From Favolaschia claudopus (Eukaryota; Basidiomycota; Agaricomycetes; Agaricales; Mycenaceae): a DNA stretch of 64,000 nucleotides. How positions within the stretch are numbered: the stretch's first letter is position 1; the number at the start of each line of letters is the position of its first letter. Below are positions 3,774 through 25,806 of this stretch, piece after piece. The notes below the pieces were generated by a model that did no database searches, had not been told where the DNA came from, and was given only the letters and a program-made list of their open reading frames with translations. Location of the stretch: contig JAWWNJ010000036.1 in NCBI GenBank assembly GCA_037176885.1, forward strand, positions 496,001 through 560,000, in the 5' to 3' direction. The translations under genes and the position numbers were made by a program.

Positions 3774-3849
3774 GGTCTGTATTATTTGTTCACTTCATCT
3801 GGGGCTGTAGGGTCATTATATCTTTATTATAATATTAATCGCACTCATA

Positions 3850-6066: not shown

Positions 6067-6072
6067 GAGCGC
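6067..6072. repeat. Left 6-bp target site duplication of element G (GAGCGC)
   Basis: GAGCGC lies directly outside the left terminal inverted repeat. The identical hexamer is at 25801-25806, directly outside the right one. Confidence 0.85.
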
Positions 6073-6154
6073 TATGACGTTCCGGACGTTGCAATATTCA
6101 AACCACACACATATATATTGGGGACCAACACATATACGTTGGGGAGCAACACAT
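6073..6154 (+). repeat. Left 82-bp terminal inverted repeat of element G
   Basis: Starts TATGACGTTCCGGACGTTGC, continues through CAAACCACACACATATATAT and ends in a GGGGACCAACAC / GGGGAGCAACAC pair. It matches the reverse complement of 25719-25800 with few substitutions. Confidence 0.88.
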
Positions 6155-6383
6155 ACCTATATATCTTTGTGAATGTCTACGAAAATGTAAGAAATGTTGG
6201 CTATTGCATTAATATGTGTTCGGAAAGTGTGCTCGTTCACGTCATTTTGTTCACGTCATTTGATTGCCATTGCGTGGACCCGAAATCTCCGTCTGCCGCT
6301 TGCTTTTCTCCCTGTACCTTGATCCACCCCGCACCTCTTTTGGCCGTTACGTCTGACGCAAGGCCGACACGACTCTCGTCACT

Positions 6384-6440
6384 CGTCACGATCCACGGGG
6401 TCTGTGACGCGGCGCGTCAAAAACTGTCCACAGTGGACAA
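6384..6440 (+). repeat. Subterminal palindromic module, copy 1 (left end of G)
   Basis: A GTCAC..GTGAC inverted pair is followed by GCGGCGCG, an A-run and CTGTCCACAGTGGACA. The same arrangement recurs at 18208, 25538 (inverted), 57022 (inverted) and 57954 (inverted). Confidence 0.75.
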
Positions 6441-6566
6441 TTTGATTGAGTCTTGTCACTGCAAGGTGCGTAAGCTGCTTATTCTCATAGTCTACTATAT
6501 TCACGTCTTCAGCCCTCTAAATTCCTTCTCTACCCCTCATGTTCGTGTACTTCAATCAAGTTATCT

Positions 6567-8607
6567 TTACAACGTCTCATCCATGAAGTGAGAGAGAACA
6601 GCAAGCCCCTGCGCCCAGAATTTCGCTCGCTCTAGCCAGATTGGATGCGCCAATGAAACAGCGATTTTTTTCTTCATAGTCCGCCCCGCAGCTAGCACCT
6701 CCACGTCTGGATACGCTTCGGCCTCCCACTCTTCTGGCAGCACCCCGTATCCCTCCGGAACAACGTCCTGCGTAACAACGTCAGCAAGAGTGTCGAAAAA
6801 CTTGCGCTCCATCTCTGGGTCTTGGTTGAAAGGGTTCCTGTGGTTGGGCACCTCTATGGCCTCGTGTCTAATCTGTGGATCTTGGTCGGCGCGGATGCGG
6901 TCCTCGAGCATATCGTCTTCGTCTTCGTCTTTGTCTTCGTCTTCGTCTTCGTCGCCCTCGCCCTCATCCTCTTTGTCAGGCGGGTTCCCTGCTCCCGAAG
7001 TACGACGGATCCTTTCTTTGCCCCGAACGCCGTAATACTTCTCGATCGTTTCTGGATGTAAGCTGCCACAATCGTCGCGATAAATCCCATATTTAGCCTT
7101 GCCAATAAGCCGCAAGTCCTGTAGGGCGGTCAGAATTCAAAATGTGATTGGGCCAACGACAAACGACGTACATTGGGGCTCTTGTTGAAGGTTTCTTTTC
7201 CGTCCATAGGGTGAGCGTTCCACTGGGTCTGAAATTCGAGGCAGTCCTTGTTGATGGCTTCAAGGAACAAAGTGTGCAGCAACCAGAGATGTTCTGGTTT
7301 GCCGACATCCAAACAGTGAAGACGCTCCAGCCGAGCAAAGAAGCCGCGCCAGCGGCGGACAAACTGTGTTCCAACCTCGACCCATAGTCGCTCGATACGG
7401 GTATTTCGAGTTGATCTGATTACATTGGTCCTGTAAGTAGATTTGGAGAATAAAAGAAAGTTAACGCACGATCCCCATATGAAGCTTGCGCGATTAGGTC
7501 CATTTCGCATTACCATATAGATAGCAACTGCAACGTTCTCCCCACCTCGATCGCCCCGCATACGGGATGGGAAGCCGTAAATGCCAGCAGCCGTCAAGAA
7601 AACATCCAACACTGTATCCGAAGTATTGTTATTGCTGGCGCGAACGCCGGTGACCTGATTATCTGAGTTTTGTCTGAGACCATATGAAACAGAGAGACAC
7701 CTCACAGTTCGACAGTATCCATCGGCAAGGCCATGGAGGACAATCCCCCAGCGAATCATCTTATGGTGTCCATCCAGATGCCAAAGCGCATTAGGTCTTG
7801 TGACATTGTATACTTTGCGCTTGAGGATGGCCCGTTGACGCAGCACCCGCCCGAGATTATCGACACGTCGAAGAGAGTACATGGCTCGTCTCCTCTGCAC
7901 GCGAAACCCCCTGGAGCGCAAGAAACCCATCAAGTAACGCAGGCCAGACTCAGGTTTCTCCCGTTTGAATCCCTTCACAAGCTCATCAAGTTCGTTGTTG
8001 GATAGGTCTGCATATGTCCTAGAGAGGCCGTGCTTCTTCATATGCCGCCAGAGTGTTGTTCGATGGCAATTAAGCAGGTCCGCAAGCTCAGTGAGCTTTA
8101 TCTGGCGCTCAGGACGTAGAGCTTCTGCCACAAAAGCGAGATTCATGGCTTTGGGGGGACGTCCTCTCTTCCCGGTGCGTATATCTTGAACCAGTACGGG
8201 AAACTCGATTTTGGTGTCCTCTCTACCGACAAGTTATGTCAGATATTTAAACGCAAGATCACAGACTTCGCTCACCTTCCCTGAGCTAGCGCTTTGGCTC
8301 GTCGCAATGCATACACCACATTTCCAAGAAGTTCTGCTGCGCTATGAAGCCAGGAAATAGCCACTGGGGTCTCATCTGAATGCTCAGATTCACCCAGAGT
8401 CACAAGAAGGAGTTTCCCGTCTGAGGTAAGGGCATCAATATGGTGGGCAGCGCGCGACGCGTCCAAGTCTTCTTGCTCAGTTACTGCCAACGCGTGTTCA
8501 TATAGTTCCGTCAATGCTTGATGACTTGCTAACACATTTGCAGACCATCGATCGTAGCCCAAAGGCAAATCTGGCAGCAATGGAAAAGATTGGGGAAGTT
8601 GAGACAT
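6567..8607 (-). CDS. rve-type integrase-core (DDE) protein, candidate transposase of element G
   Basis: A spliced minus-strand gene. Exon 1 starts at ATG 8607 (MSQLPQSFPLLPDLP); an in-frame ATG at 8679 is an alternative. It joins across an intron near 8217-8273 to an exon reading DTKIEFPVLVQDIRTGKRGR. Next comes a helix-turn-helix segment (LTELADLLNCHRTTLWRHM) and an RNase-H-fold integrase core with the acidic triad in LDGHHK (near 7770), GDRGGEN (near 7550) and IERLW (near 7393). Introns interrupt the core after the CRTV and WGS codons. A last intron near 7110-7170 leads to a tail with a long D/E run encoded by a TCGTCT-type repeat (about 6905-6960), ending at 6567. Related integrase-core proteins are widespread in basidiomycetes. 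Its place next to the left TIR and its DDE residues make it the best transposase candidate here, but that role is inferred. Confidence 0.82.
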
Positions 8608-8695
8608 GAAGAGCCGTGTCTGGCTTTGTTCTTGTTTATTATTGTGGGTGCACGACACTTTCTTCTTACTTTCATTCATTCCTTAATCTTAATCT

Positions 8696-9736
8696 ATGGC
8701 TGTCCCAGCACCACAGCCAGCCCTTTTGACGAGGAGCAGCGAGTTCTACTTTGACGTGCCAGGCTATCCCGTCTTTCTGGTCCGTCAAACAACTTGTAAC
8801 AAGCAAGATCTGATTCTTTTGGCCAGGTCGAAGATACTCTTTATAAACTGGACCCCAATACGATCTTCCGTCACTCCGCTGTCCTACAGGATATAGCGGG
8901 AGTTCCTGGACCAGGTGGCTCTCAGCAACTTTCCTCCGACACGAACCCCATAGGTCTACCTGAGGAGCGGGGAAAAGAAGAATTTGAAAAGTTTATTCGC
9001 GTCGCATACGGAAAGTAAGAAGCTCCAAGCTTATCCTTATCCACTAATTCATTGCAAACCTGAAGTCCTGCTACCGAAGACGAGTATGGACAGAGTTTCA
9101 AGTTCCAGGAATCCATTATCAAGACCCTGGAGCTCAGCGACTACCTCATGTCTCCCGCCTTGCGGAGACACTGCTTGTTCATCATCCAGAGGCGCCACTT
9201 CTGTATCCCCCCCGTCCAGTTGATACAGATATGCTACCGTTTTCGAACCAGAGCGTTTTACGAAACGGCCTTCCACTATCTTGTGGCACACCCCATCCGT
9301 GATCTGACAATTGAGGATACACAGAGCTTGGGTTTTGCGGTATACGTTGCTCTGGCGAGACTCAAGGAGGCTCATGCTGAGCACCGTGCGATTCTTGCTT
9401 CAGAGGAACCTCAGTTCGCTCCTATGGGACCTGATGGCCCAAGCCATTGTGCTGGATGTGTTGACAACTACGCTTGCGCCGAAGACTGGCAACGAGTATG
9501 GTGGAATGGCATGGGCCGTTGCTTGTTAGATGGCAGGAACCCTTCCAGCTACTCCGAAAGCAGGGCGTACCTGGAAAAAAATGCATTTTGGGCGGATGAA
9601 CCCTTTCTGTCGTGTCGAAATGCTCAAACATATCCAGAGCAATGTTGGCAATGGCCACTTTTACGACATGACCAAGGTGGTGGCTACGTACCTCGCGCAG
9701 GAGATCGTTGAAGATGAGGGGGAGGTTCTTGACTGA
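8696..9736 (+). CDS. BTB/POZ-domain protein, apparently frameshifted near its end
   Basis: Three exons: from ATG 8696, from about 8826, and from about 9063 onward. The product resembles the fungal BTB family: an FYFDVPGYPVFLVEDTLY opening strand, IFRHSAVLQDI, then IRVAYGN leading into a helical C-terminal half (SLGFAVYVALARLKEAHAEH, and a C-x2-C/W-rich stretch ending WWNGMGRCLLDGRNP). BTB proteins often serve as adaptors for cullin-3 ubiquitin ligases or as transcriptional co-factors; the role here is unknown. After YLEK the reading frame must shift by one base at an A7 run (9575-9581) to continue into MNPFCRVEMLKHIQ..EVLD with a stop at 9736. It is divergent from the integrase gene, starting about 90 bp upstream of it. 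Confidence 0.65.
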
Positions 9737-10005
9737 ATTTGTTTTCTGTTGCTCACATTCCTTCTTCCATTCGCTCATTTATTGCACTCATTACTTTATA
9801 CAAGACTTAATTGCATTTGGGACAACTCAATAGATCGTACTTTGCTTCACGATGTTGGGTGACCTCCGAAAATTTCCTAATTTGGAACCTTTTCGACTCA
9901 AGCAATCTCTCTATTCATTTCTATCGTGATGATACTGAAGACAAGAAAGTGAGCGTACCAGTGGCGTGTGACGTGTCAATTGAAGCTACTATCCATCAAG
10001 ATCAT

Positions 10006-11250
10006 TCATTCCCGCTCTGCCCTAAACCACTCGCTCGCCTCCCCGGAGAGTCGCCATGCCCGCATGCTTCCCAGCCGTATCTCATCGAAGAAGAGGTGTT
10101 CGCCAAATTCACAATAAGCGTCACTCCAGCGTGATCCCAAACACCAGACTGACACCCCCTCAACCACGGAACGGTCCCATATCACCCCAGGGAGATCAAG
10201 ATCGCCGGGATTTCCAGGGCCATGCATAGAACTGTCCGGACCTTCTATGAGGTCGTCGGGAACGGTGTCGGGATGAGTCTTGAGATATTCCTGTCTCTGC
10301 TCATAGTTCAGGATATCCTCGAAAACGGGGTCTGGATGATCATCCCGATATCTCGTAATCTCATCAGTCTCATCCCTGTAGCCCGAATGCAGAATAAACT
10401 TGCGCAAAGACGACTCCGGTGCAAGAGAAGGAAACCAGCTGGTTATGACTTGATTCAGCCTCCGGTAGGTCGGAGGCCCAAAAGCGGGCGGTGGAAGAGA
10501 GAGGACAATATAGTGGAGGCGGTTTAAGCGATTGTCGCAGAGAACTGAAGCCCATCCACCACAATTGTCCAAGTCCCAGAAAGGACACTGCTCCTCATCT
10601 TCGTCCTCTTTCTCGTCAACGAAGGCTTGTTCTCTGTTGTCCTCTCCCTCATCCTCGCTGGATTCATCTCCACTGGTTGAGGACTAATTTCATCAGTAAA
10701 AATAATATATGGAATAAAACATACGCACTGAGAAGTCAACATCACCGGAAGGGTGCGCAAAGAAGGCCAGTTTAAGGAGGTTTGGAAGCTGGTGGGCCTG
10801 GTAGACATTGAAAAATCGATCGGGGAATCCTGTGTCGTTTATGGAGAATGCTACCACCAGAGTTGTCAATCTGACAAGGCGGGGAACAACAGTATGCCAC
10901 GCGAGGGTAAAAGCAGCAACTTCGTCCGCAATATTTGGAAATTCATTCAAGTATATGGATATCTGGAGGGTGAATATCCCGCCAGCAATTGGACATGATG
11001 GGTGGGCTATGAGGTCCAGGAATCCCAAGCCTTGCTCGAAGGAGTAGAGGTCGATGTGCCGGAATATGACAGGTAAGGCAACTGTCCTAAATAGCTGTGA
11101 TATTGACGATAGCTTCAGCAGGCCTTGTTCAAACCCTGAAGAGTCGCTTGTGTCCCGCTCTTCTTCCATGTAGTCAATCGCGAAATCGAGGATGTGTGTC
11201 AGGGTCTCATTGGGAAATATAGGCGCGTTCATCGAGTGTTGCTGAGACAA
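10006..11250 (-). CDS. F-box-like protein (cargo of element G)
   Basis: Two exons. Exon 1 starts at ATG 11250 and exon 2 ends at the stop at 10006; the intron near 10690-10735 follows the GDVDFS codons. The N-terminus (APIFPNETLTHILDFAIDYM ... ISQLFRTVALPVIFRHIDLY) has the spacing of basidiomycete F-box-like proteins: a P-x-E-hydrophobic core and an R-x-V-ALPV-IF motif. An acidic linker (SSEDEGEDNREQ.., DEEQCPF) separates it from a C-terminal region rich in W, D and Y. Such proteins typically select substrates for SCF ubiquitin ligases, but no C-terminal LRR or WD40 repeat is obvious. The frame is intact. Confidence 0.7.
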
Positions 11251-12085
11251 AGTCGCCAGTGACGCGACGCGTGCGGTGCAAAGAAAGATGTAGTAGACCA
11301 GGAAAGAGATGCCAAAGTGCCAATCAGCACCGCGTCAAGTAAATGCCGACAAACAGTCTCATAGGAGGAAGATAGATTCTTTAGTTTATGGTACCTTGTA
11401 CTCGTACAAGTAGATTTGAGTTGAAGGAATTGAATTCAATTGAACTGCCTAGATACAAACAAGTAGAACTACCGAGAATGCGTACGAAAATGAAAATCTG
11501 AATCTCCATACGAACAGAGTCCACGCAGCCAAAGGCTGCAACCGCGCGCTTTCTCCCACCAGATACATTGCCTTGATTTCACCGCCGAGCGTTGATGCTG
11601 ACTTGTATTTCACAGCGTTACGTGCGGCGTCGTCGAAGGGTTGCGGCTTAAGGCCAGGGGGTCGAGGTGAGGGTGTGTTTTAAGGCCTGTGAGGTCAGAT
11701 ACGGGTTGGGGAAGGTGCGTAAGTACGTTGCTGTTCCGAACGGCGACTGCGGGACGTAGCCAGGCGATGTTGATGAACGAGCCCTTCAAACCGACAACCT
11801 CCATCTGCTTGAAGGCCGTAGAGGAGAGAAAGAGAGTTGAAGAGGGTGTATTAGCGTGTACAGAAGATAATTGAAGAGTTCCAGTGAGTTTTTGATGTGA
11901 TTTGAAGAAGATTTTGCATGAAGAGTGAAATGCGAGCAAACTTGGAAATGGCGCAACATCCCGAGCAACTCGGCGTTGACGGCGACGAAGAGAACGGCGG
12001 CGGCGCGGCGCGATGATCTGCCTACTTAGGTGAGTTGTTCCGTTTCTTCCGCCGTAAAAAAAAAAACAAAAGAACTCACCTCACG
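11251..12085. other. Gap inside element G without a clear gene
   Basis: Between the F-box-like gene and the broken gene. Short minus-strand frames around 11620-11940 may be the eroded 3' part of the pseudogene at 12086-18142, but none can be joined convincingly. An A-run lies at about 12055-12070. Confidence 0.3.
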
Positions 12086-12908
12086 TTAAATAAATTTCCA
12101 CCGTATTTCCGAGTCGGTTGGCGCGCACAGCACCGACACGACATTGTCGGCGTCGACGGAGGCGAGGAAGGCGATGGCGATGTCGGTGGCGGCGTGGCCC
12201 CGATACAGCGCCCCGACAACCCCCGACTCAATCGCCCTGAAATTCGGGAACAAGTCATATGCATACTCCGCCGCAGTCGTCCGCCGCAGTCGTCCGCCGC
12301 AGTTGTCTTGATGCTCTGATTCACAAAGTCAATGCCTTCGTTCACGTTCGTCGTCAAGAGGAGGGCTCGCTGAAACGCAGAAACAATATAAATTATTATG
12401 AAACAGAGTGAGCGTGGAGTCCAACAAGAATGCGGTCAAGGCAATCACCACTGGGAACTTCAAGGTTGTTTTCGTGCAACACGGCAAGGGCCAAGAAATA
12501 AGAATTAATGATGGGCTGGTGGACCTCGGTGTCAAACGAGGGACGAGGAAGCGGCGGCAGCTTGACGGGAAGAGTAGTGAATTTGGAGTGAGAGTGTCGG
12601 GAGGGCGGGGAGATCGTAGAGCGCGATGCAAACGTTCGAAACGGCGGCGCCGTAGCTGGTTTCATTGTGGAGGTGGTTGTGTGCGGGGGAACGGGGAGAA
12701 CGGGAAGGAGGAGGTGAGGGCGGTGAGCAGAAAGCGTTCATTTTCGGGGGAGGAGGGGTCGGGTGGGGTTGGAGACGTGAAGAGGGCCTGGCGAGTCGAT
12801 TAATTGGGCTAAATTGTGAACAGAAACGAAGATATAAATGATAACGCACCACACATCCCGCTGTAGACCCGAAATAGACTGTATCTCCGTCTGTGTTTAC
12901 TCTCAACC
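12086..12908 (-). pseudogene. Broken unknown gene, 3' part (5' part lies beyond the copia insertion)
   Basis: The minus-strand coding sequence picks up exactly at the copia target site (TTG-AGA-GTA-AAC) and continues as VNTDGDTVYFGSTAGCV. A likely intron follows (about 12847-12786), then ALFTSPTPPDP. Protein-like stretches then continue in different frames (NVCIALYDLPALPTLSLQIH; INSYFLALAVLHENN; EGIDFVNQSIKTTAA; and NFRAIESGVVGALYRGHAAT), so at least two frame breaks are present. One break coincides with a 13-bp tandem repeat at 12268-12303. I do not recognise the family. A stop at 12086 ends the last readable frame. Loss of function is clear from the insertion and the shifts. Confidence 0.55.
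12268..12303. repeat. 13-bp tandem repeat (about 2.8 units) inside pseudogene
   Basis: The unit CCGCCGCAGTCGT occurs twice in full and once in part. Counted as one unit, the flanking minus-strand frames would be continuous (KTTAA-EYAYDLFPNF). The two extra units add 26 bp and shift the frame. Confidence 0.7.
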
Positions 12909-13172
12909 TGTTGGAAGCAGTGCCTCCGGGCATCTCGGGCAATCCGCCAGAGTCAAGTAGAGTCAATGGAATGTAAGGGAATAGCGTAGAATATTTATTG
13001 TGACTCTATCTATACGACTTGTAATGACTCATGCAACCCACTAGTATTTAAACCGATGTATTTCGTACTATGTCAATAACTACTTTTATCTTGAACCACA
13101 ACTACCCACTGTTTGATTACTAAGGCACGTTCACACCGTGTCTCTTTGTTATCCAAGTAAACTGCGCTAAGA
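12909..13172 (+). repeat. 5' LTR of copia element (264 bp)
   Basis: Begins TGTTGGAAGCAGTGCCTCCG and ends AACTGCGCTAAGA. The 3' end (GA) departs from the usual CA. Contains a TATTTAAA-like box about midway (ACTAGTATTTAAACC). It matches 17648-17911 base for base by eye. Confidence 0.93.
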
Positions 13173-13192
13173 GGTTACGGGCCCCCGCCTAG
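13173..13192 (+). promoter_or_regulatory. Putative primer-binding site of copia element
   Basis: GGTTACGGGCCCCCGCC directly follows the 5' LTR, where the minus-strand primer normally pairs. I did not match it to a specific tRNA. Confidence 0.4.
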
Positions 13193-13302
13193 TAATCAAA
13201 TCACAGTTTATTCCAGCGACACTCGATTCTTATTGAATCCGCACCGACAATTAGTAGACTCTGTAATTCAGGGATACTTTACCAATCTACGGACTTTCGA
13301 CC

Positions 13303-16300
13303 TTGAACATGACTGATTCTAATTCATCTACTCGGATTGAGCTCCTCAATGAGGAGAACTGGATGCCATGGAAGCGTCGCATAACCGCGATCCTACGAGA
13401 CAATGACCTTGAAGGTTATCTTGATGGCACCGAGGTCTATCCGGCGGTCGCTGACCCGTCGAAGATCACAGCAGACGAGAAGAAAGCAATTGCGGCATGG
13501 AAAAAGGCAGACGGAAAGGCCCGAAGTAAAATTGAACTTGCTTTGGGAAATTCCCAGATGGTACACATTGCGGGAGCAACTACGGCACTCCAGATGTGGT
13601 CACAATTGTGCACAGTCAAAGAGGCCAGAGGTCAGCTAGGTATCATGTCTTATCGACGGAGACTATACCGGACGGTTGCCGATGAAGGCGCCGACATATC
13701 AGCCCACATAACGGAGCTACGAGGAATTCAGGAGCAGTTGAATACCATGAGCAGCTTGGTAACTGACCAGGAATTTCTTATAGCGTTGATCACCTCTCTA
13801 CCCGAATCTTGGGACCAATTCACGAGCGCGTATCTGGCTGCAAATAATGGTAAATTGACAACAACGGTTAATACTACCAGCAGCACCGCACCTTCATCCT
13901 CCACCGGGCCAGTGAGCCCTGTCACTGTCAATTCACACGAGTTGGTGGCCCTCATACTCGAGGAGTATCGACGTCGGAAGGAGAAAGCCGGAGAATCTAC
14001 ATCGGGATCATCAGCACTGTTCGGAAAGAACAATCAGCACAGTAAATCCACGAACACCAACGACGGATGTTTCAATTGCGGAGGCAAAGGCCACATGGCA
14101 AAGGATTGCTGGAGCAAGGGCGGCGGCAGAGAAGGTCAGCGCCCGAAAAACTGGAAGGGAAAATGGAACGGTAACAAGAAACGAAATTCTGCTAACGTTG
14201 GGACAGATCAGAGTTCCGACAATTCAAACCAGAACACCGGATTCATGGCTATTCACACCCCTCAGTTCGACTCGCGTCTATCAAGAGACGCATGGATTGC
14301 AGATTCCGGCTGCACAGTTCACATCGCCAATAAACGGGAAGTTTTCTCGGATTATACTCCACTGGAGGGCGAAACCATCAACGGACTTGGCGACAATTCG
14401 GTTAAGGCCCATGGCCGCGGGACTGTTAAACTTGAAAGCTTTATTAATGGCAAGAAAGAGACGGTTCTATTATACAACACATTGTACGCACCAGCAGCCG
14501 CGAACAATTTGCTTTCAATTCCCCGCATAGATGATGCTGGAGGAAAGGCGGCTTTTCACGATGGCAAGGCAACAATTTACTCGAAGGCAGGAAGGCTCGT
14601 CTTACAAGGTGAGAAAAAGTTTCGACTTTATTGGCTTGACACACAAGCAGTTGTTGAGCGGAATCGAGCCAACACTGCGGATTTGAAGGATACTGACATT
14701 AACAGCTGGAGCGCATGGCATCGTCGTTACGGCCATATTTCTGACTCAACTTTAGAACTTCTCATCCGCCACGAGTCTGTGAAAGGACTTACCATCGATC
14801 CCAGTACGAAACCCGCACACCAGGTTTGTGAAGCCTGCATTCAGGCAAAGATGCATCGCAAACCATTTCCGCACAAAGCCCTTCACCGATCGGAGATCCC
14901 GGGAGAAGGCATCCACAGTGACCTATGGGGTCCTGCACGTACACGGTCAACTGAAGGAAATTACTATTATATTTCTTTTACCGATGATGCTAGCCGCAGA
15001 AAGGTAGTACTCTTCATGAGAACCAAAGACCAGGCTAAGACGAAGGTCATGGAGCACATCGAATGGCTTGAGCGGCAGTATGGTTATAAACCGAAGTGGA
15101 TTCGTGTCGATGAGGGAACGGAGTACCTAAATGAGTCGCTTAAACAAGCACTCGTTGCAAAAGGTATTGAAATTCATCAGACGGCACCTTATTCGCAGTC
15201 ACAGAACGGAGTTTCTGAGAGACTGAACCGGACACTCGTTGAGCTAGCGAGAGCAATGATTGCGGAGAAGAATTTACCTAAAAGTCTATGGGAATTCGCC
15301 GTAAGACATGCAGCATATATCCGGAATAGGGCACCAACCAAAGCTTTGCCCGATGGGCAGACACCGCTCGAGGCATTTACGAAGGAGAGACCAGATGTAT
15401 CTCACTTCCAAGAGTTTGGCGCGCCAGTTTGGATTTTTCGCGAGGACGTTAAGAGCTTATCGAAGCTCGAGGGCAGAGCTAACAAACATATATTTGTAGG
15501 ACACTATGACGGCGCGAAAGCAGTACGGTACTATGATTCAACCACCCACCGCGTAAAGATTTCACGGAACTTCCAGTTCACCGACCCTTCTATTCAATTC
15601 AGCGAAATTTCGACGGATGTACCATCCGAGGGGGAGAAAAACGGAAATACGACTGGAACATCATCGAAATTCCCGAATCAGCCAGCAACACCACAGAAAT
15701 CGACGCAGAACGTACCGAGTACACCACCCAATCCACCGTCCACCCCACCGGCACCATCGTCATCGAGCGGTAACACGCCAAAGGTGAAAGCGCCAGCTTC
15801 TGCACCATCAACACCGCGTCTTGCTACAGAACCCGATCCAAGACCAAACCAATTGAATCCAATCCCACTCCGCCGACTCACCCGTCCTGTCAAAGATCAG
15901 AATTACCTGAAACTTGGGAACCCCGCAGCTCGCAGAGAGCAAACTCACCGATATAGTCGAGAAGACTCTGAATCCGAAATCGTCGCAGAAGACGAGGACG
16001 ACACCTTTGCGAATTTTGCGTACAAAGCAACACTCGGAGAACTTGATCCCGGCAAGCCTAATATACCCAAAAGCATTCAAGAGGCAAAATCATCGCCTGA
16101 ATGGCCGAAATGGGAAGAGGCAGTGAACGCCGAACTCACCAACTTGAACGCAATGGGGACATGGAATCTTGAAGAATGTCCGACGGATCGAAAGCCAGTT
16201 GGATGTCGATGGGTATTTGACCTAAAGACAGATCAGCAAGGGAACATCATTCGCTATAAAGCGAGACTGGTAGCGAAAGGCTACTCACAGGTTCCGGGCA

Positions 16301-17640
16301 TCGATTATTTCGATACATTTTCACCCGTTGTGCGGCTCGATTCGCTCCGAGCACTCCTCGCAATCGCCGCCGTTCATGATCTGGAGATGAAGCAGTTAGA
16401 TGTCAAGGGAGCATATTTGAATGGAGACTTACAAGAAGAAGTTTTCATGGATCAACCTCCTGGTTACGACGACGGATCCGGACGCAAATGTCGTCTGAAG
16501 AAAACGTTATATGGCCTGAAACAGTCAGGAAGAGAATGGAATCGAAAGCTTCATTCCATACTCACGAAGCATGGCTTCAAGCGAATTGAAGTTGACCACG
16601 GTGTATACTTGCGCCAAATCAAAGATCAGTTCGTTATTATCACGGTATGGGTCGATGACCTACTGCTATTCAGCAACAGTACCACCATGCTTTCCGCTAC
16701 CGAGACCGCTTTAAAGCAAGAAGTAGAGATCAATGATCTCGGCGAGCCCAAGAAGATTATAGGTATTGAAATCTACCGCGACCGGGCACAGCGAACCATC
16801 CAGATTTCGCAGGAACACTACATCGACAGTATCCTGAAGAGATTTGGATACGAGCATATGTCGCCAGTGAAGACCCCGATGGATCCAAATGTCGTCCTAC
16901 AGAAGATCGAGGGCGAAGGTACCAGAGTCGATGAGCGAGGCCACAGTTTTGCCGAGTACATGGGCTCACTGATTTGGCCAGCTACAATAAGTCGGCCAGA
17001 TATAGCGTATCCAGTAGCGAGGATTGGGGCGTATACGGCGAATCCGAGTACAGCGCATTGGACGGCGATGAAGAGAATCTTTCGGTATCTAAACGGTACC
17101 CGAACTCAGCGGATCACCTTCGGAGGACCGGAATTTCGGACCGATCCATCTGCTATCTTCAATCACTACGGCGCGTACAGCGATGCCGACTTTGCATCGA
17201 ATCCAGACGACAGCAAATCAGTTTCTGGATATATCTATCTGCTAGCTGGAGGACCAATCGCTTGGCATTCAAAGAAACAACCGACAGTTGCTCTCAGTAC
17301 AGCCGAGGCGGAATACTCAGCTTTAGCGGCCGCAACGCGACACGCTATTTGGCTTCGATATTTATTTGAAGCACTCCCATTCAAATTTCCAGAGGAAAAT
17401 TCAACACAAATCTTTTCAGACAACCAATCGGCCATAGCAATTGCCAATGATCCTCAACATCATGCAAGATCGAAACATTTCCGTGTTGAGAATCATTTCA
17501 TTCGAGAATGTGTTGAATCCGGTATTGTGAACGTTGAATATTGTCCCACTGATGAAATGGTTGCGGATATATTCACAAAGGCTTTACCCCGTGTAAAACA
17601 TGAACAGTTTTGTTTGAACATGGGACTCATGCCGGCTTGA
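13303..17640 (+). CDS. Copia Gag-Pol polyprotein (1445 aa)
   Basis: One open frame from ATG 13303 to TGA 17640. In order: a Gag region starting SSTRIELLNEENWMPWKRR; a CCHC zinc knuckle CFNCGGKGHMAKDC (about residues 256-269); an aspartic protease with DSGCTVHI (about 333); an integrase zinc domain HRRYGHIS..CEACIQAKMH (about 473-522) and DDE core starting HSDLWGP (about 538); a Pro/Ser-rich linker; reverse transcriptase with RYKARLVAKGYSQ and WVDDLLLFS (about 1116; W replaces the usual Y/F of xVDD); and RNase H with SDADFASNPDDSKSVSGY and STAEAEY (about 1293-1335). No internal stop or frameshift was found, so the copy is coding-competent. Gag and Pol are fused in one frame, as is usual for copia. 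Confidence 0.95.
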   Translation: MNMTDSNSSTRIELLNEENWMPWKRRITAILRDNDLEGYLDGTEVYPAVADPSKITADEKKAIAAWKKADGKARSKIELALGNSQMVHIAGATTALQMWSQLCTVKEARGQLGIMSYRRRLYRTVADEGADISAHITELRGIQEQLNTMSSLVTDQEFLIALITSLPESWDQFTSAYLAANNGKLTTTVNTTSSTAPSSSTGPVSPVTVNSHELVALILEEYRRRKEKAGESTSGSSALFGKNNQHSKSTNTNDGCFNCGGKGHMAKDCWSKGGGREGQRPKNWKGKWNGNKKRNSANVGTDQSSDNSNQNTGFMAIHTPQFDSRLSRDAWIADSGCTVHIANKREVFSDYTPLEGETINGLGDNSVKAHGRGTVKLESFINGKKETVLLYNTLYAPAAANNLLSIPRIDDAGGKAAFHDGKATIYSKAGRLVLQGEKKFRLYWLDTQAVVERNRANTADLKDTDINSWSAWHRRYGHISDSTLELLIRHESVKGLTIDPSTKPAHQVCEACIQAKMHRKPFPHKALHRSEIPGEGIHSDLWGPARTRSTEGNYYYISFTDDASRRKVVLFMRTKDQAKTKVMEHIEWLERQYGYKPKWIRVDEGTEYLNESLKQALVAKGIEIHQTAPYSQSQNGVSERLNRTLVELARAMIAEKNLPKSLWEFAVRHAAYIRNRAPTKALPDGQTPLEAFTKERPDVSHFQEFGAPVWIFREDVKSLSKLEGRANKHIFVGHYDGAKAVRYYDSTTHRVKISRNFQFTDPSIQFSEISTDVPSEGEKNGNTTGTSSKFPNQPATPQKSTQNVPSTPPNPPSTPPAPSSSSGNTPKVKAPASAPSTPRLATEPDPRPNQLNPIPLRRLTRPVKDQNYLKLGNPAARREQTHRYSREDSESEIVAEDEDDTFANFAYKATLGELDPGKPNIPKSIQEAKSSPEWPKWEEAVNAELTNLNAMGTWNLEECPTDRKPVGCRWVFDLKTDQQGNIIRYKARLVAKGYSQVPGIDYFDTFSPVVRLDSLRALLAIAAVHDLEMKQLDVKGAYLNGDLQEEVFMDQPPGYDDGSGRKCRLKKTLYGLKQSGREWNRKLHSILTKHGFKRIEVDHGVYLRQIKDQFVIITVWVDDLLLFSNSTTMLSATETALKQEVEINDLGEPKKIIGIEIYRDRAQRTIQISQEHYIDSILKRFGYEHMSPVKTPMDPNVVLQKIEGEGTRVDERGHSFAEYMGSLIWPATISRPDIAYPVARIGAYTANPSTAHWTAMKRIFRYLNGTRTQRITFGGPEFRTDPSAIFNHYGAYSDADFASNPDDSKSVSGYIYLLAGGPIAWHSKKQPTVALSTAEAEYSALAAATRHAIWLRYLFEALPFKFPEENSTQIFSDNQSAIAIANDPQHHARSKHFRVENHFIRECVESGIVNVEYCPTDEMVADIFTKALPRVKHEQFCLNMGLMPA

Positions 17641-17647
17641 GGGGGAG
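17639..17647 (+). promoter_or_regulatory. Polypurine tract of copia element
   Basis: GAGGGGGAG overlaps the Gag-Pol stop codon and ends directly at the 3' LTR start; the expected plus-strand primer. Confidence 0.75.
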
Positions 17648-17911
17648 TGTTGGAAGCAGTGCCTCCGGGCATCTCGGGCAATCCGCCAGAGTCAAGTAGA
17701 GTCAATGGAATGTAAGGGAATAGCGTAGAATATTTATTGTGACTCTATCTATACGACTTGTAATGACTCATGCAACCCACTAGTATTTAAACCGATGTAT
17801 TTCGTACTATGTCAATAACTACTTTTATCTTGAACCACAACTACCCACTGTTTGATTACTAAGGCACGTTCACACCGTGTCTCTTTGTTATCCAAGTAAA
17901 CTGCGCTAAGA
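17648..17911 (+). repeat. 3' LTR of copia element (264 bp)
   Basis: Same sequence as 12909-13172, followed directly by the CAACC target duplication. Confidence 0.93.
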
Positions 17912-18142
17912 CAACCATCCCGTCACGGCGCCGGTTTGGGATGGGGTGGAGTCGGCAATGTTGCGGACGCGTTGGCTTCCATGAAAATGCGAGGCTTGGT
18001 TGTGTGGAGGGATGCCGGCGTTGAGGAGGGCTTCTTGGGACAAGTGATAGAGGCGCGTTCGGCGGCTGAAACCCGAAAACAGCAAGCGGGAGCGATGTGC
18101 GGCGGATGAGAAGAGAGAGTGTTGGCACTTATTTGCCAACAC
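17912..18142 (-). pseudogene. Broken unknown gene, 5' part
   Basis: A minus frame starts at ATG 18142 (MLANKCQHSLFSS) and runs through SQTGAVTGWL to the copia target site. Removing the retroelement and one CAACC copy gives an uninterrupted join to the frame at 12908 (TGG TTG AGA GTA), so this was one exon. The start codon sits inside a 13-bp-arm hairpin (18115-18146). Family not recognised. Confidence 0.5.
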
Positions 18143-18146
18143 TCTC
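18115..18146. repeat. Perfect hairpin, 13-bp arms and 6-nt loop
   Basis: GAGAGTGTTGGCA, loop CTTATT, then TGCCAACACTCTC. It lies between the pseudogene start and the dioxygenase gene. It could be a divergent-promoter operator, a small inserted end or a terminator-like fold. Confidence 0.6.
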
Positions 18147-18207
18147 TCGGGCTCGCGTCTATCTCAAACGCGTGCCCGTGGACCGCGCGCGGGCACGCGT
18201 TGTCACC

Positions 18208-18264
18208 CGTCACAGCCCACAGGGCAAGTGACGGAACGCGCTGAAAACTGTCCACCGTGGACAG
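18208..18264 (+). repeat. Palindromic module, copy 2 (upstream of dioxygenase gene)
   Basis: A CGTCAC..GTGACGG pair, then AACGCG, an A-run and CTGTCCACCGTGGACAG. It ends 33 bp before the dioxygenase ATG and has the same orientation as copy 1. It could be a promoter element or a relic of an internal transposon end. Confidence 0.7.
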
Positions 18265-18296
18265 TTTTTGTCAGGTCAAGTCGACTTTTCACATTA

Positions 18297-21200
18297 TGCC
18301 TCCCAAAGTTGTCCTTGAGCTGGACGAAGATATCGCGAGCAATATTCTTCAACGCTTGGCTGCTTTTTCACAAACTGACCTTGCATTCTCTACGCTACAA
18401 TCGTCTCTTGCTGTAGCTTTGCTGGGCGACACTCCTCTGCCTCAAAATCTGAATGGGAACTCTCTGAGCCAAACTGCTGCTCTCTCGCACCCGCGGGGTC
18501 GTCTTGGTCGTCTTCCTAGTACGCAACGCGTTTCACGCCGCCGCGCCACAAGTTTGCCGCCTGTCCTCATGTCCTCGTTGGAAGGTATGCTTAACATTCC
18601 AATTTTGCTGTGAATTTCTTAAATAGCTACGCACCTGCCAGACTGGAGTTCAAGCCCATCTCCTACTCCACACCCAACGTCCCCGGTGCGTGCAGAGCCC
18701 TCGCAGTCTGCTGCGTCCGCACTGGGTCTGTCTCCTTCGTCTCCCACTTTGGCTCCAACGCTTGGTCCGTTGACACCCCATCCCCTATCTCCATCCACAA
18801 CACTTGGATTGTCAATGACTCCCCAAACTTTCTCTCCCTCCCTCCCAAGTGCTTCGTCAGACCAGATGGAAGCTCCGAGGCCCGAGCGCCTTATGCTGCG
18901 GTTCAAAATGCCTGCCCACGTTCGGGCCCAGCTGAAGGCTGGTGCTGGAGGAGCTCAGGGAGGTGGAGGGGCAGGCGGTGGCAAACCGTGCTGCAGGAAC
19001 GGGGTGGCTGGCCGTGCAGGAGGGGATGACGATATCGGGCGCGTCGACTGTGACGACCATACATGCACTCAATGTCATCCCGTTCCGAACGACGCTGCTG
19101 CAGCCAATATGAGGGCAGCAGCAGATGCAGCTTTGAATCGTGACGCAGAAGGGGAGTCGGAGATAGACTCTGCAGGTGGGCTGTCTGGTGACAGTGATGG
19201 GGAGCTCAGTGAAGGGGGGAAGAGGGGTGGAAAGAAGAAGAAGAAAAAGACTGGTTACAACGTCGACGGTGAAGGACCTGCTCTCACGAAAGATGCGGGG
19301 ACGCTTCTTTCAGAGTTGTTAGCGGCCATATTCAAGCGAGAGGCCCGCGACGACTTGGATCGATTCCTGGATGATCTGGCCAACGGCGGCCACAAGTTTG
19401 AGCATCGTGCACCGCGAGACCTGGCAGAAACAGCATCCCGACTAAAAAAGCTGGAGCGACAGAATCAAATCGGCTCTTTCTGGTACATGGTCACGCTTGT
19501 GCAGCTTGTTCTGCACGTCGACAGGTGAGTAACCTTTCTGCTCTATTTGAAGAAACCTCTCATTGCTAACGCGACGCTCAGCATAAAGGCAGACGCCAGG
19601 CTCAAAAATACTCATGTACCTGGCGCTGAAACGATCGCCAAGGCTCATGGCATGTCAAGAACTACTTATGGGAGACGGCTTGAGTGTGGCACAAGGCTCA
19701 TGTCTCTGTGTGCAGCCAGTAAACCCTCAGCTCTTTCCCGGGGAACTTGTACTGAACCAAGTCTTTTGTAGGCACTCCATATCTGCTTGTCCTCATCGCA
19801 GTCGCCAATAAACGAGAGGACTTCATCAATAACCGTTTGAGCTCAACCGATGATATTAAAGCTCTCGCTTGTGCCCTCAGAGAAGTCTCACGTAAGCTTG
19901 TCCTTGTTCGTCATATTATCAGACTCTGCTCTTACCTTGCTATTTGTAGATGAAAAGTGGGGTACTCTTGTAAATAGGCTGCGTATACCCCTTGACTACG
20001 TCCGCAAGAAATCAGATTTTCTAGCCTCTCTACATTTCTGCCACCAGATTCCGGATCGTCTGGCGAAAATGAAGCGCGAAAATATACCCTTTAATGCTAT
20101 GGTGACAACTGACCCCGTGTTTGAGAATATCACAACCAAGTGAGTGAACAGCTCCTTTTGCACGTCCTTCTAACTTCGGCGCAGTCTCGCAAAGCTACCC
20201 AAACGTTCTGAAGTCTGGTATAGCCCTGTCCCTACGTGGAACGTTTTTGCAGACGTCGATGACCTTCCCCTACCCGACGTCCATGTCATCCAAACGCCGG
20301 ATGAGTTTGTCAAGACCCCGTCGCCTGTCAAGGCCAGCACTTCCGACAAGTTCACTGAAGCGGCGCGGCAAGACGCTGAAGATGCAGATATAGCATTCGA
20401 TCTAGATGACCTAGAGGAAATGGTGACGTGCTCTCTTGTTACTAAAATAAAAGTCCTAAACTCACAGAAATACTACAGATTAACGAACCAAACCGAAAAC
20501 GGTACATAGAGATAAATACAACTATCTTGGATGGGTAAGCTTCTCTACTCATACGAACTTGATGGTTTACTTGATTATATGTAGGAAAATTCTGCGAATC
20601 CAGGATCCCAAGGGGAAACTGCTTGCAGATGTGTTCACGCTTCCTGACCACTTAACTCAAAAGCTCATAGACGCAATTGGTCTCATACAAGCGGCTATGC
20701 CAGGGGAATGGAAAGACGACACTTCGGCGAGGGAGGCCTACCGTTTTTTGTCGTGCAATTACATGTACTACGCCCGGTACGGGGAGAAGGTATGTGTCCA
20801 TAGGCTTCATGACGGGATTCAGTTAACTGTTCACAGGGTCATTCGGCACCGACTACAGCAGCTCATATGGATCATGTTCAACGCAGTCACGGAGGGCGCG
20901 TCAATCTTACTCAGCGTACTCCTCATGAATCAAAGGAAATGCGAGATAACGCTCGTGAGTATGCAATTCTCTGTGATGCCTATGAAGAGGTGTTCGACTA
21001 CATACGAGTAACGGTGAGTGGAATCCTCTTCTCTGCCGTCACATAGCTAAGCCGCGAACAGTTACAGAAACGTTTTCCTGGCGAATACGAGGACCTAAGC
21101 ATCTATTGCGACGTGCTACCTATGAATGCAGCCAGCGCAAGCTATCCGTTCGGCGGTTTTACCCTGAATCTACGTGCGGCAACTAGGGCTCACCGCGACC

Positions 21201-21454
21201 TTGGCGACAAAGACATATGTGTTGTCATTCCTTTTGGCGATTTCACTGGAGGGGAGCTTTGCCTTTACGAACTGCGTTATAAATTGGATTTGAAGATGGG
21301 CGATGTTTTGATATTTCCCTCCTGTGATTTGACGCATTTTAATATGCACTTTACGGGTAAACGCGGTACCCTGGTTTTACATTCCGACAGGCATGGAGAG
21401 CAGTGGGTTAAGGATTGTAGGGGATGGGCTCCATATATTAGTAGATTTTATTAA
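18297..21454 (+). CDS. 2OG-Fe(II) dioxygenase, probable TET/JBP type (cargo of element G)
   Basis: A gene of about ten exons from ATG 18297 to the stop at 21454. The N-terminal half is Ser/Pro/Gly-rich with a possible metal-binding cluster (CCRNG, then CDDHTCTQCH, near 18985-19080), a Lys run (about 19230-19250) and a helical stretch (TLLSELLAAIFKREARDDLD). Middle exons read LVNRLRIPLDYVRKKSDFL, PSPVKASTSDKF and ILRIQDPKGKLLADVFTLP. The C-terminal domain has the double-stranded beta-helix signature: HxD in ATRAHRDLGDKD, VIPFGDFTGGELCLYE, LKMGDVLIFPS, a distal His in DLTHFNMHF, and the Arg/His strand RGTLVLHSDR. This pattern fits the expanded basidiomycete TET/JBP proteins, which may oxidise 5-methylpyrimidines in DNA. 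TET/JBP expansion with DNA transposons is known in fungi. Other 2OG-Fe(II) families are possible, and exon joins in the middle are approximate. Confidence 0.7.
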
Positions 21455-21831
21455 TAATATTCTTTCTTGAAGCTCAATGAAATTGGCTTGGACCAGACGG
21501 GTATTTGATTGAGCAAAACCAGTGACGACTATTATTGGTTCGAGGTAAATTACAGTAACGGGGAAAGCAGCAGACTGTAAGAGAATGTAAGTAATGCGTG
21601 AAGCATAGAGCGCAGGCAGCAATTAGAGAGAGAGAGTAAGGATAGCAGTAACAGGCTAGTAAGTCATGATAACGCGAATCTGTACAGATAATGAGCGGAT
21701 ATTGTAGAAAGAGTGTTCGTTTGGGTATCTGGGTATAGAGACAGCATTACGACAAGCATATAGATGGAGAGACGTTTGGAGGGAGCCAGGGAGTGTGATT
21801 GTAAGTAGATTGGGAACGAAGAAGTACGGTA

Positions 21832-24000
21832 CTAGAGCCTGGGGTGCTTGTACCCGGGGTGCCAAGGGTTTGTCGCATTTGGGTCCCTGTCGTAGTTCTC
21901 CTCCCAAGGAAGAAGAAAGGGAGGTGCGATGCGAGGAGGGGCGGACACAAGAGATCGTGCCTGGAAGTCGTACATAAACTGGCTCAATTCACGGTTAAAG
22001 GCTGGCGAAACAAAAACATTGAATCAAGGAAAGAAGGCCAGACAAAATGAGCTACACTCACGAATGTCGGCATTCTCAGGCAGCTTGGATGTCGACGCCA
22101 CAGGTTCTTCTGCTTTGTTGACTTTGGCTGAAGCTGTGATGAAGAGTGTTAGCTCCAAAATTACTCAACGAACTGACTACGCACCAAGTTTTTGCTTCTT
22201 CGCAGCAGGAGTCTCTTCCGGTTCGTCGTCTGAGATGCTTGCAGTTGAAGCGTACCTACGCTTGCGGGAACCTGAAAAATGTGCTTGAGACGTAACACCA
22301 ATATAGAGCTAAATCACATACTAGCTGCTGGCGTGGTTTGCGTGGTTTGCGTGTCCAAACTATCGAAAATGGAGTCCTTTTCATCCTCCGGGTCAGAAAT
22401 GTTTTCGATATCGGAACTGGGCACATGGCCTTTGGGCGGCTGATACCAAGTCCCATAGACCTCTGGATCAATCCTCTTTCTCAAGGCTCAAGTCGAAAAT
22501 TGTCAGCAACAGGACATGAACTGATTTGTAAAAGGAATGGTCTCACCAAGATACAAAAACGTTTGAGTGGTATTACTTTTCTTTTGGATTTTGGAAACCA
22601 TTGTGCGACCATTTGGATTGAGATCACAGCCATCCAGAACAGAAAGCTTCTGATAAAATTTCTCGAGTAAGAACCAGTCATTCTTGTTAGATTGCACTTG
22701 AGTACATACAAGAATAGTAGCACTCGCTGGATAGTCGTTCGGCCAACAGCTATTGATGTGTTCAGCGCCTATTCCGATGTTATTCCGAAATATGATGTGA
22801 ATGATTTCTGAGTGATACTGCCGGCTCTGCCGCATTCAAGATCTGCGGCACACCTTCTCTCTTGGTTTGCGCGAAGGGGACCGACCATTCCCGTCCCCTC
22901 CCCTCCCTCGCTGCGCTCGGGGGGTCCCCCGAACCGGGGCCGCTCAGGTCGGCACTCTAAAGCCACGTTCGCGCGGAGGACTCTGTCTTTCACCCTAACC
23001 TCCTAACCCGTCGGGGCGGGACTCTTTTGCTGAATTGCCGGAGCTAGGGCGCGCTCCGCTTGCCCTAGCTCCTCGGCTGTGTATTTTTTTGGCCTACGGC
23101 AGTCATTACATCGTGATGATTAACTGACGGTTGATCAGATGCTGTGTATGTTGCTATGTGGCAACGACTTGGCAACAGCCTCGGACAAGCCTCGGAATAG
23201 GCGTTCAGCCAGATCAATAGGCGTTGGTGAGCGCCTATGATACTAAAGTTGTCGTGCCTCATTGCACTTGGGCTGCTTGAAAGGCTTTCGGGAAGACAGT
23301 AGCCAGTTGCTTAGTTGCTTGCTCGTGCGTCCATTCCGCAGAGATCATAACGTCATAAGCAACGCAGCCGTGACTTTTGCGAAGTTGCTCTTCAGACGGC
23401 GTTAGAGCTCTCGACGATGAACGCAAAGCAAAACCCTGCAAGTACCAATATCAGAATAATAAAGGTCAGTTGAATGGAACAGAAACTTACATTTGAAACA
23501 CCCTCGGTGAGCAGGATGACTTTACTGACTACTGGTCTAGTCGCAGAGGACTAGTTGCATGATAAGTAAACTGAGCCGCACCCTGGAAGACACAATTTAC
23601 TTACAGTTCTAGACTTGGGTGTCCTACTCTGCGTCTGCGGCTTTGAAGACGACGATGACCTGTGTTTCTTGCTACTTGGTCGGTAGCCTTTCAAGGCGTC
23701 AGCCGTGGCAGTCTGAGGATCAACAGCAGCCTGAGTGGCTGGAGCATCCCCGGGGCGTTGAGTGCCTGGAAAAGCGTCGGACAAGCGCCTGTTGGCATGA
23801 ATGTCAAATATCGCTTGTATGGTAGGTTTTGGTGGGTCAGCAACAGGTGGCGACGGAGGAGGCTGGATAGGCTTTGCAGGACCATGGCGGCTTCGCCCAT
23901 GTCCGCATTCTCTACACTTCGAAGGGGCTGAGGGATCTGTAGGCGCGTCGTACTCCTCGCAGGAGCAAGTTGTCCCGTCTTCGTCTATTTCCCGGCACAT
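21832..24000 (-). CDS. Cys/His-motif protein of unknown function (cargo of element G)
   Basis: The minus-strand gene starts at ATG 24000. The N-terminus has a likely zinc-binding motif: CREIDEDGTTCSC, then KCRECGHGRSRH. A Pro/Ser-rich stretch ends PSSKKHRSSSSSKPQTQSRT. Later exons read KVILLTEGVSN; GFALRSSSRALTPSEEQL..AYDVMISAEWTHEQ (to about 23260); INSCWPNDYPASATILV..EKFYQKLSVLDGCDLNPNG (22740-22560); YGTWYQPPKGHVPSSDIEN; AKKQKL; and a last exon with WEENYDRDPNATNPWH ending at TAG 21832. Most joins are clean GT-AG. The intron at about 23260-22790 would be unusually long (about 0.45 kb) and holds a GC-rich hairpin-rich segment. I recognise no family; the Cys-x2-Cys/His-x4-His pattern suggests nucleic-acid or protein binding. 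Confidence 0.5.
22817..23103. repeat. GC-rich, hairpin-rich inserted segment
   Basis: Bounded by the inverted heptamers ACTGCCG (22817-22823) and CGGCAGT (23097-23103), with several internal stems (AGGGGAC..GTCCCCT; GAGCTAGGGC..GCCCTAGCTC). Base composition contrasts sharply with both sides. It probably sits in an intron of the Cys-motif gene. No target duplication was found. Confidence 0.4.
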
Positions 24001-24224
24001 AATGCGCAAAAGAAAAGAAGAAAGAAAAAATGAGAAAGGTAGAAGAGAAAGGAAAGAAACCCTAGACAGCCCTGACGGCGGCAACCTCTTTTCTTTTCTT
24101 AGCACGTCATCATTTCTTAAACTTTATTCGACAGACGATTTGCAGCTTCTTTTTCTCACTGAGATTTTATTTCCGTGCACTCGGACCGAACTTCCTGCTC
24201 GACAACGTTGGGTGGACGCCCTCC

Positions 24225-25453
24225 ATGATATCCCACTACCCTGGGGAGCTCATTGAACAGACACTTGACTTTCTCGAGGTGGAGGATCTTCAAAGCTGTT
24301 CTGTAGTCAACAAATTCTGGCGTCCGGTGGCTCAAGGGAGGATTTTCAGGGTCATATCTCTGGGCATTGGCATGGCAGGCGGATATCCTGAAGGCCTGCT
24401 CGAGATCCCTCCTCTTGAGACAACCACGAACACATTCACCGCCTTTGATGGATTGCTTCGCAATTCTCCCCACATCGGAAGCTATGTGCGCACACTCAAT
24501 CTAGGTCTCCGCGAGCTTGTGTCTCCAATATACCTTTGGAATGAGATAGAGGATGCAGTAGGGCGTATTCTTCCACTGCTCCTTGGCCTTCAGCATCTCG
24601 GACTATTTCCTTGCACCGTCTATGATGGTTCCCCTATTCACATCCCAGAGAAGTTACGCGCTGCACTTTCCAGCTTAGAGCTAAGGTCTCTACACCTTAC
24701 GCGATGGGGACTTGGAGACTGGACACCCCTCCTTGTTCTAGGACGTCGTTTACCGACTACAATTCGTTTCATACGCTGTGACTTCAACTCCAGCTTTGCC
24801 ACCTTTGGCCTGTCCATCCAGCCTTCCTTCCCAACAATCCTAGCTTCATCCCTTGTGGACCTGGAGCTCAATCTCTGTTCCAGTCTTGATGTTTTTACCT
24901 CGAAATGGCTTGCAGCTGGCAGGCAGATTTGCAGCCTGACCCTGCATCTTCTATACGATGATCATGAGCTGGACTCTGTTAACATAACCAGCCAGGCAAT
25001 CAGAGATATGTCGCGGTTGGTTAGCAGGAACTTGTGTATAATCTTTCGAGAAGGTGCGCCTTACTTTTGCCAATCTCTTTCACTATTCCTGACTAGCACT
25101 TGTCCCGTCAGTATGTTCTCAAGCGCCTCCGCTTTTCGACTTTCGCTGCCTTTCTCACATTCCGCATGTTCATCTGCAGTTCAAGGCAGATGGTCTCAGA
25201 ATCGTGAATGCAAGACGCTTAGAGCAGTGGCTTGTTCACGGTTTAGGGTTTAGACACGTTGGATCTGAAACCCGGTTCCCAGTTGCGAATATCTCTGATG
25301 GGTCACTTTATGGCTCGGGACCCTCCGGATTGGAACGCCATAATAGAGAGGTTTTCGCGGTCTAATTCCACTTTGCGACTCGAAAACCCACCCATAGATT
25401 TATCTCTCCCTCTCGCTGACTCTACTGTAGAGCACCTCTTTGTCTCTGCTTGA
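24225..25453 (+). CDS. F-box/LRR-like protein (cargo of element G)
   Basis: Starts at ATG 24225 (MISHYPGELIEQTLDFLEVE), an F-box-like helix pair followed by NKFWRPVAQGRIFRVISLG. Leucine-rich strands then repeat (SLELRSLHLTRWGL; SLVDLELNLCSSLDVF; ICSLTLHLLYDD). A GT-AG intron follows IIFREG (about 25055-25110). The rest reads VHLQFKADGLRIVNARRLEQW. To reach the plausible tail (DLKPGSQLRISLMGHFM..ADSTVEHLFVSA, stop 25453) the frame must change near 25255, so there is either an unseen small intron or a frame break. It is divergent from the Cys-motif gene, starts 225 bp apart. Likely an SCF substrate receptor by family; targets unknown. Confidence 0.6.
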
Positions 25454-25537
25454 TACCTACTTTCCTTACTCTCACGCACTTCCACCGGATCGTACTATTG
25501 TCATGGCTTGTATCACAGAAATTTAGAATTCTCATTT

Positions 25538-25592
25538 CTGTCCACCGTGGACAGTTTTCGCCGCGTTGCGTCACAGGCACATGAGCTGTGAC
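25538..25592 (-). repeat. Subterminal palindromic module, copy 3 (right end of G)
   Basis: CTGTCCACCGTGGACAG, TTTTCGCCGCGTTGC, then a GTCACAGG..CTGTGAC pair. It is in reverse orientation to copy 1, so the two form a matched subterminal pair. Confidence 0.75.
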
Positions 25593-25718
25593 AAGCTGTA
25601 GTCATCTCGTGACCAACTTCGGCCCTGAGGTCCTAAGCCGAGCAAGACGCTGTACAAAAGGCTCTGTGTGTTGCACTCTATATACAGTATGTAAGACACA
25701 AACAAAAGTTTTCCTAAG

Positions 25719-25800
25719 ATGTGTTGCTCCCCAACGTATATGTGTTGGTCCCCGATATATATGTGTGTGGTTTTATTATTGCAACGTCCGGAACGTCATA
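25719..25800 (-). repeat. Right 82-bp terminal inverted repeat of element G
   Basis: Reverse complement of 6073-6154 with few mismatches; ends GCAACGTCCGGAACGTCATA. Confidence 0.88.
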
Positions 25801-25806
25801 GAGCGC
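25801..25806. repeat. Right 6-bp target site duplication of element G (GAGCGC)
   Basis: Identical to 6067-6072, directly abutting the right TIR. Confidence 0.85.

Follow-up and report, generated by a model that had tools for sequence, protein, structure and literature searches.

A multi-gene DNA transposon of Favolaschia claudopus with a TET/JBP dioxygenase gene, very probably a member of IS3EU

The window analysed in this study is a stretch of 64,000 nucleotides from the mushroom Favolaschia claudopus (contig JAWWNJ010000036.1, positions 496,001 to 560,000), and its positions 6073-25800 are a single DNA transposon of 19.7 kb. This element is, with high probability, an IS3EU transposon carrying a TET/JBP dioxygenase. 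Labels such as C4 denote contigs of the F. claudopus assembly (264.6 Mb), the window being on C36. The ends of the element, its target-site duplications (TSDs), its terminal inverted repeats (TIRs) and its genes are as follows.

6067..6072: left TSD, GAGCGC, repeated at 25801-25806
6073..6154, plus strand: left TIR, 82 bp, starting TATGACGTTCCGGACG
6567..8607, minus strand: transposase, 609 amino acids (P0001 / R3P38DRAFT_3317322), with an rva_4/rve DDE domain (D261, D318, E353) and weak helix-turn-helix matches
8696..9711, plus strand: BTB-like gene, provisional, kept in C68, C4 and C100; start read by eye
10006..11232, minus strand: predicted gene of the window copy only, from our own splice model; F-box-like start read by eye
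18296..21454, plus strand: TET/JBP dioxygenase gene with an HxD..H motif and many introns, from a splice model; annotated in part as P0239
21832..24000, minus strand: gene without known family, Cys-rich at the N-terminus, with tblastn matches in sister elements and interrupted in the window copy
24225..25453, plus strand: F-box gene (F-box E 7e-4, 19.8 bits against a cut-off of 20.5)
25719..25800, minus strand: right TIR, 82 bp, abutting different flanking DNA in C7
25801..25806: right TSD, GAGCGC, a perfect match to the left hexamer

The two TIRs, compared in inverted orientation, are identical at 79 of 82 positions and end in TATGACG..CGTCATA, so the near-identical repeats and the perfect duplication described in the first-pass annotation are borne out. 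The first 24 TIR bases have 75 genomic matches at up to two mismatches and a reversed control has none, therefore the repeat is not due to chance. These matches make up 32 inward-facing pairs and 11 single ends; 29 of the pairs span 61-1,251 bp, and the three long ones span 7.5, 16.2 and 19.7 kb. Flanks were read for 18 of the 29 short pairs, and a perfect 6-bp TSD was found in 14. Five long elements besides the window copy, with both ends read (C68, C4:1625792, C4:815154, C100 and C71), all have perfect 6-bp TSDs. Other copies bounded by the same ends with different hexamers, for which the first-pass annotation had advised a search, are thus present in the genome. The long relatives on C68, C4 and C100 are listed below.

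C68:1278027-1294270: 16.2 kb, TSD AGGGGG, full-length relative
C4:815154-832248: 17.1 kb, TSD CGATCT, related family found via TET matches
C100:158128-177792: 19.7 kb, TSD GTACTC, related family found via TET matches
C4:1625792-1633304: 7.5 kb, TIRs of the window family, TSD ATGGTC

The window element was compared with the first three of these, and the C68 element is about 72% alike to it in two main aligned blocks. The C4:815154 and C100 elements are 97.7-99.8% identical in four main blocks, with insertion differences, and sit at different sites with different TSDs; hence the transposon is mobile as a unit. This supports the earlier view of an integrase-type transposon that moves as one piece with its accessory genes, as do the separate TSDs of the sister elements. 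An element on C71 represents another family, with ends TATGGC..GCCATA, TSD GGGATC (read by eye), TET and transposase genes in the same orientation and no palindrome of the kind described below. The 7.5-kb element on C4 shows no match to the genes of the window transposon and holds an open frame of 892 amino acids. A 960-bp non-autonomous element is also found within the window itself (56502-57461); it has the same TIR start and TSD CCAGTG, and its ends resemble those of the C4/C100 family.

All four compared elements share one gene order, namely transposase (minus), BTB-like gene (plus), TET (plus), the gene without family (minus) and F-box gene (plus). The transposase matches rva_4 at E 2e-58 and its residues 247-438 have an integrase fold; by sequence, no PDB entry was matched at E ≤0.1. 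Its best NCBIfam models are IS3 (E 4.8e-10) and IS481 (E 5.2e-8), both far under their curated cut-offs. Read by eye, the HHCC finger is absent before the P0001 core, with one cysteine upstream of D261. When P0239 was manually extended with the exon 21047-21451, the Tet_JBP match reached E 2.6e-9 and 37.0 bits against a cut-off of 34.9, the main exon alone giving 25.4 bits. The PE type is unlikely for this enzyme because the motif reads HxD and not HxE. Among the best 120 of 126 TET relatives, the named ones are from Agaricomycetes and none is from a rust; AG or PU type is not assigned on this basis. Relatives of the transposase or of the TET protein include entries from Mycena and Collybiopsis. 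The TET profile found TET2 chains in the PDB at E 0.33-0.34, with unrelated chains from E 0.61. The structure model is poor (predicted local distance difference test 50.4), and a fold search with it returned nothing at E <0.001. In C68, C4 and C100, tblastn matches the BTB-like gene at 45-69% and the main exon of the F-box gene at 44-48% amino acid identity, and the F-box of the C68 copy scores 21.0 bits, over the cut-off. The minus-strand gene at 21832-24000 is matched along its length in C68 and in its N-terminal part only in C4 and C100, and belongs to no Pfam family. The predicted gene at 10006-11232 likewise has no Pfam family and no tblastn match in these three elements. For the accessory genes, the proportion of nonsynonymous differences (pN) is below that of synonymous differences (pS) across the element comparisons.

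The first-pass annotation had taken the whole 19.7 kb as transposon plus cargo. About a quarter of this length is a later Copia insertion, which was overlooked together with a second, shorter insertion.

12909..17911, plus strand: complete, nested Copia long terminal repeat (LTR) retrotransposon, 5.0 kb, TSD CAACC, open reading frame (ORF) 13267-17637
22700..23260: 561-bp insertion with a 9-bp duplication, ATTGCACTT, absent from C7

The Copia LTRs (12909-13172 and 17648-17911) are identical at 264 of 264 positions, the ORF matches Pfam RVT_2 at E 6e-73, and C7 shows the empty site. The 561-bp insertion interrupts an exon of the gene on the minus strand, and the same exon is continuous in C68. 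The recent Copia insertion and the 561-bp insertion stretch the unit to 19.7 kb; the element calculated without both, and without one copy of each duplication, is of 14,150 bp. The partial copy at C7:3161240 is 99.6-99.8% identical to window positions 17912-22700 and 23261-25800, and holds pieces of 12561-12908 as well.

The surroundings of the insertion were compared with other contigs.

5725..27001: older dispersed repeat with ends CGATCAGG..CCTGATCG, host of the insertion, its flanks lying at 5725-6072 and 25807-27001

With the flanks joined, the sequence aligns uninterrupted to C170 and C57, at about 73-75%, and therefore the target of the transposon lies in a dispersed repeat; an empty target, for which the first-pass annotation had also advised a search, is found in these paralogous repeats. 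The repeat is about 1.5 kb long and resembles a miniature inverted-repeat transposable element, with the same CGATCAGG..CCTGATCG ends, and it also occurs at C170:424308-425964. The sequence of C109:506400-507100 runs from window position 5724 directly to 27002 with near flanks 96-100% identical, and is presumed to be the other haplotype without both repeat and transposon. A second contig, C81, resembles window positions 1-5484 at about 90%, and is hence a rival candidate for the allelic contig. Both haplotypes are probably present in the assembly, since 86.8% of BUSCO genes are duplicated in the published 265-Mb assembly (PMC10905254).

The first-pass annotation knew of no named superfamily with this mix of genes, but IS3EU fits. 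As described in the relevant passages of PMC10045372, IS3EU elements have TA..TA termini, usually a 6-bp TSD and no HHCC finger. The window element has such termini, and the 6-bp TSD is found in the window, C68, C4 (two elements), C100, C71 and 14 of 18 short copies. Its transposase is an IS3/IS481-like rve DDE enzyme (rva_4, with NCBIfam IS3 and IS481 as best models under the equivalog cut-offs) and is without an HHCC finger upstream of the core as judged by eye. These likenesses extend to IS3EU/GingerRoot, whereas the elements studied here are multi-gene and of 16-20 kb, the published autonomous members being compared by description only (PMC10045372). In the sections of the survey PMC12730594 cited here, TET-carrying IS3EU elements are already described for seven species of Pucciniales and for Tuber indicum, together with an alpha-kinase gene. 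The window element shares with these a 6-bp TSD, a TIR length above 30 bp and a TET/JBP gene, and both relative orientations of TET and transposase occur among them too. It differs in its host, which is of the Agaricales; in its termini, TATGAC..GTCATA against TAYGG..CCRTA in the rusts (TATGGC..GCCATA in C71); and in having BTB-like, F-box and family-less genes where the rust elements have the alpha-kinase on the far side of TET (PMC12730594). Searched exon by exon, with the best 150 of 229 candidates scored, the alpha-kinase family PF02816 has at least 133 genomic matches and none inside the four elements. The KDZ transposase differs from the window-type transposase, and KDZ was rejected on the 6-bp TSD and the 82-bp TIRs, in agreement with the first reading. 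The passages on Kyakuja/Zisupton (KDZ) describe TET/JBP genes in mushroom DNA transposons as here, and two Laccaria Kyakuja families that lack TIRs, end in CA..TG and have 7-bp TSDs, unlike the window element (PMC12730594). For Agaricomycotina, the same passages list Kyakuja, Zisupton, EnSpm, Plavaka and Helitron2 as TET-carrying transposons, with no IS3EU (PMC12730594). IS3EU is mentioned in Agaricomycetes elsewhere, without TET in the passages concerned (PMC8955403, PMC12411881).

The association of TET with the transposase was also followed genome-wide. In the transposase search the best 111 of 661 candidates were scored, and all locus counts are thus lower bounds. The merged match lists hold at least 56 TET loci and at least 95 transposase loci. 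Of the former, 16 lie no more than 20 kb from a transposase match, compared with 0.8 expected by uniform random placement. The transposase is always upstream in these 16 loci, with opposite orientation in nine and the same in seven. C3 and C30 each have a transposase locus that counts for two TET loci, leaving 14 transposase loci involved; the 16 loci are not independent events because of this sharing and of allelic-looking contig pairs.

A number of points weigh against the IS3EU assignment with conserved accessory genes. IS3EU was assigned from termini, TSD and domain traits, and the NCBIfam scores of the transposase are 39.2 bits against a cut-off of 160 and 32.7 bits against 224. The BTB assignment is weak (Pfam BTB E 0.24, 12.1 bits against a cut-off of 20.5); in the gene list of the first-pass annotation the integrase, TET/JBP and F-box-like genes hold, and the BTB gene is only weakly backed. 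In the lower-bound lists, 40 of the 56 TET loci lie farther than 20 kb from any transposase match. Four of the 18 short pairs (C47, C4:2487343, C18 and C73) have no perfect TSD. Of the window's own subfamily, the genome yielded no other full-length copy; the C7:3161240 copy, without Copia, 561-bp insertion or transposase match, covers just the right part and short stretches of the interior. In most comparisons synonymous divergence (dS) has reached saturation, and pN is lowered because the aligned stretches were picked by protein similarity.

Among the alternatives, an IS3EU element whose accessory genes are recent host-derived passengers without a role survives best, and it is still unlikely. 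F-box genes are indeed common nearby, as window positions 29874-35789, outside the transposon, hold three long ORFs on the minus strand whose matches are F-box-like, one scoring above the curated cut-off, and the gene at 10006-11232 is present in the window copy only. Against this, the gene order is the same in all four elements for TET, the BTB-like gene, the F-box gene and, in its N-terminal part at least, the gene on the minus strand. The likeness of these elements in the main aligned blocks is no more than about 72-73%, and pN is below pS. Membership of another rve-type superfamily, either Ginger1/2 or a degenerate Polinton/Maverick, is very improbable. Polinton/Maverick elements carry a protein-primed DNA polymerase and capsid genes, and neither was matched in the scanned ORFs and gene models, which cover part of the frames. 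The integrase fold of the transposase core would suit such a superfamily, and Polinton likewise has 6-bp TSDs and no HHCC finger, whereas Ginger1/2 TSDs are of 4-5 bp in the passages concerned (PMC10045372). The P0001 N-terminus shows no HHCC finger by eye, and IS3 and IS481 are the best NCBIfam models. That the unit is really a pair of independent short TIR elements on either side of unrelated DNA, with hexamers that agree by coincidence, a possibility raised in the first-pass annotation, is hardly credible: elements of about 550 bp with the same ends are common, but at each end of the unit only one inward-facing TIR is seen and none lies near it to pair with, paralogous repeats read straight across the target, and the complete layout recurs in C68, C4 and C100, each with a TSD of its own.

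The element also contains three copies of a palindrome.

6425..6439: left subterminal palindrome, TGTCCACAGTGGACA
18249..18263: internal palindrome, TGTCCACCGTGGACA, 32 bp upstream of the start codon predicted for TET (18296)
25539..25553: right subterminal palindrome, TGTCCACCGTGGACA

The sequence TGTCCACNGTGGACA, or a form with one mismatch, is found in three places in each of the four elements. One copy lies close to the left end, another in the region immediately preceding the TET gene, and the third 248-1,298 bp short of the right end. The C68 gene model starts upstream of its pre-TET palindrome. The exact core of TGTCCACNGTGGACA is found 72 times in the genome, compared with about one calculated from uniform base odds and none for a control. 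The palindrome is not an end signature because the third copy is internal and the core is found genome-wide; the first-pass annotation was right that matched palindromes stand at both sides, but they are not boundary marks. A role as transposase end signals is not favoured either, the palindrome being missing at up to two mismatches from all five short copies checked and from the 7.5-kb C4 element; the 960-bp copy has one with one mismatch. In 12 sampled sites outside the elements, many cores sit in a longer palindrome by eye, and 11 sites have no exact 11-base TIR start within about 500 bp. CACGTG lies within 45 bp of the dispersed palindrome in seven of these 12 sites, again by eye.

As for the mechanism, the rva_4 DDE transposase would cut at the TATGACG ends and insert with a 6-bp stagger, as its family suggests, and may also move the non-autonomous derivatives of about 550 bp with shared ends. 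The TET/JBP enzyme may oxidise 5-methylcytosine on the element and so counter silencing by host methylation, after the idea of Kojima for other fungal transposons, while the F-box and BTB-like proteins may serve as ubiquitin-ligase adaptors. The accessory genes in the same order in sister copies suggest that the transposon keeps tools which may help it to escape silencing. It can further be speculated, as a doubtful proposal, that mushroom IS3EU carries a multi-gene counter-silencing module, in which TET/JBP would erase methylation of the element, the F-box and BTB-like adaptors and the fourth protein would remove or block host silencing factors, and the palindrome before TET and toward both ends would tie TET expression to the element.

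This study extends TET-carrying IS3EU to mushrooms; the survey lists only rusts and a truffle in the sections used (PMC12730594), and no other report appears among the papers listed in literature searches. Several TET-IS3EU families exist in the F. claudopus genome, which also has full-length copies that are nearly identical and a large number of non-autonomous derivatives; it would therefore allow a direct test of the idea that a demethylase helps transposons to escape silencing.

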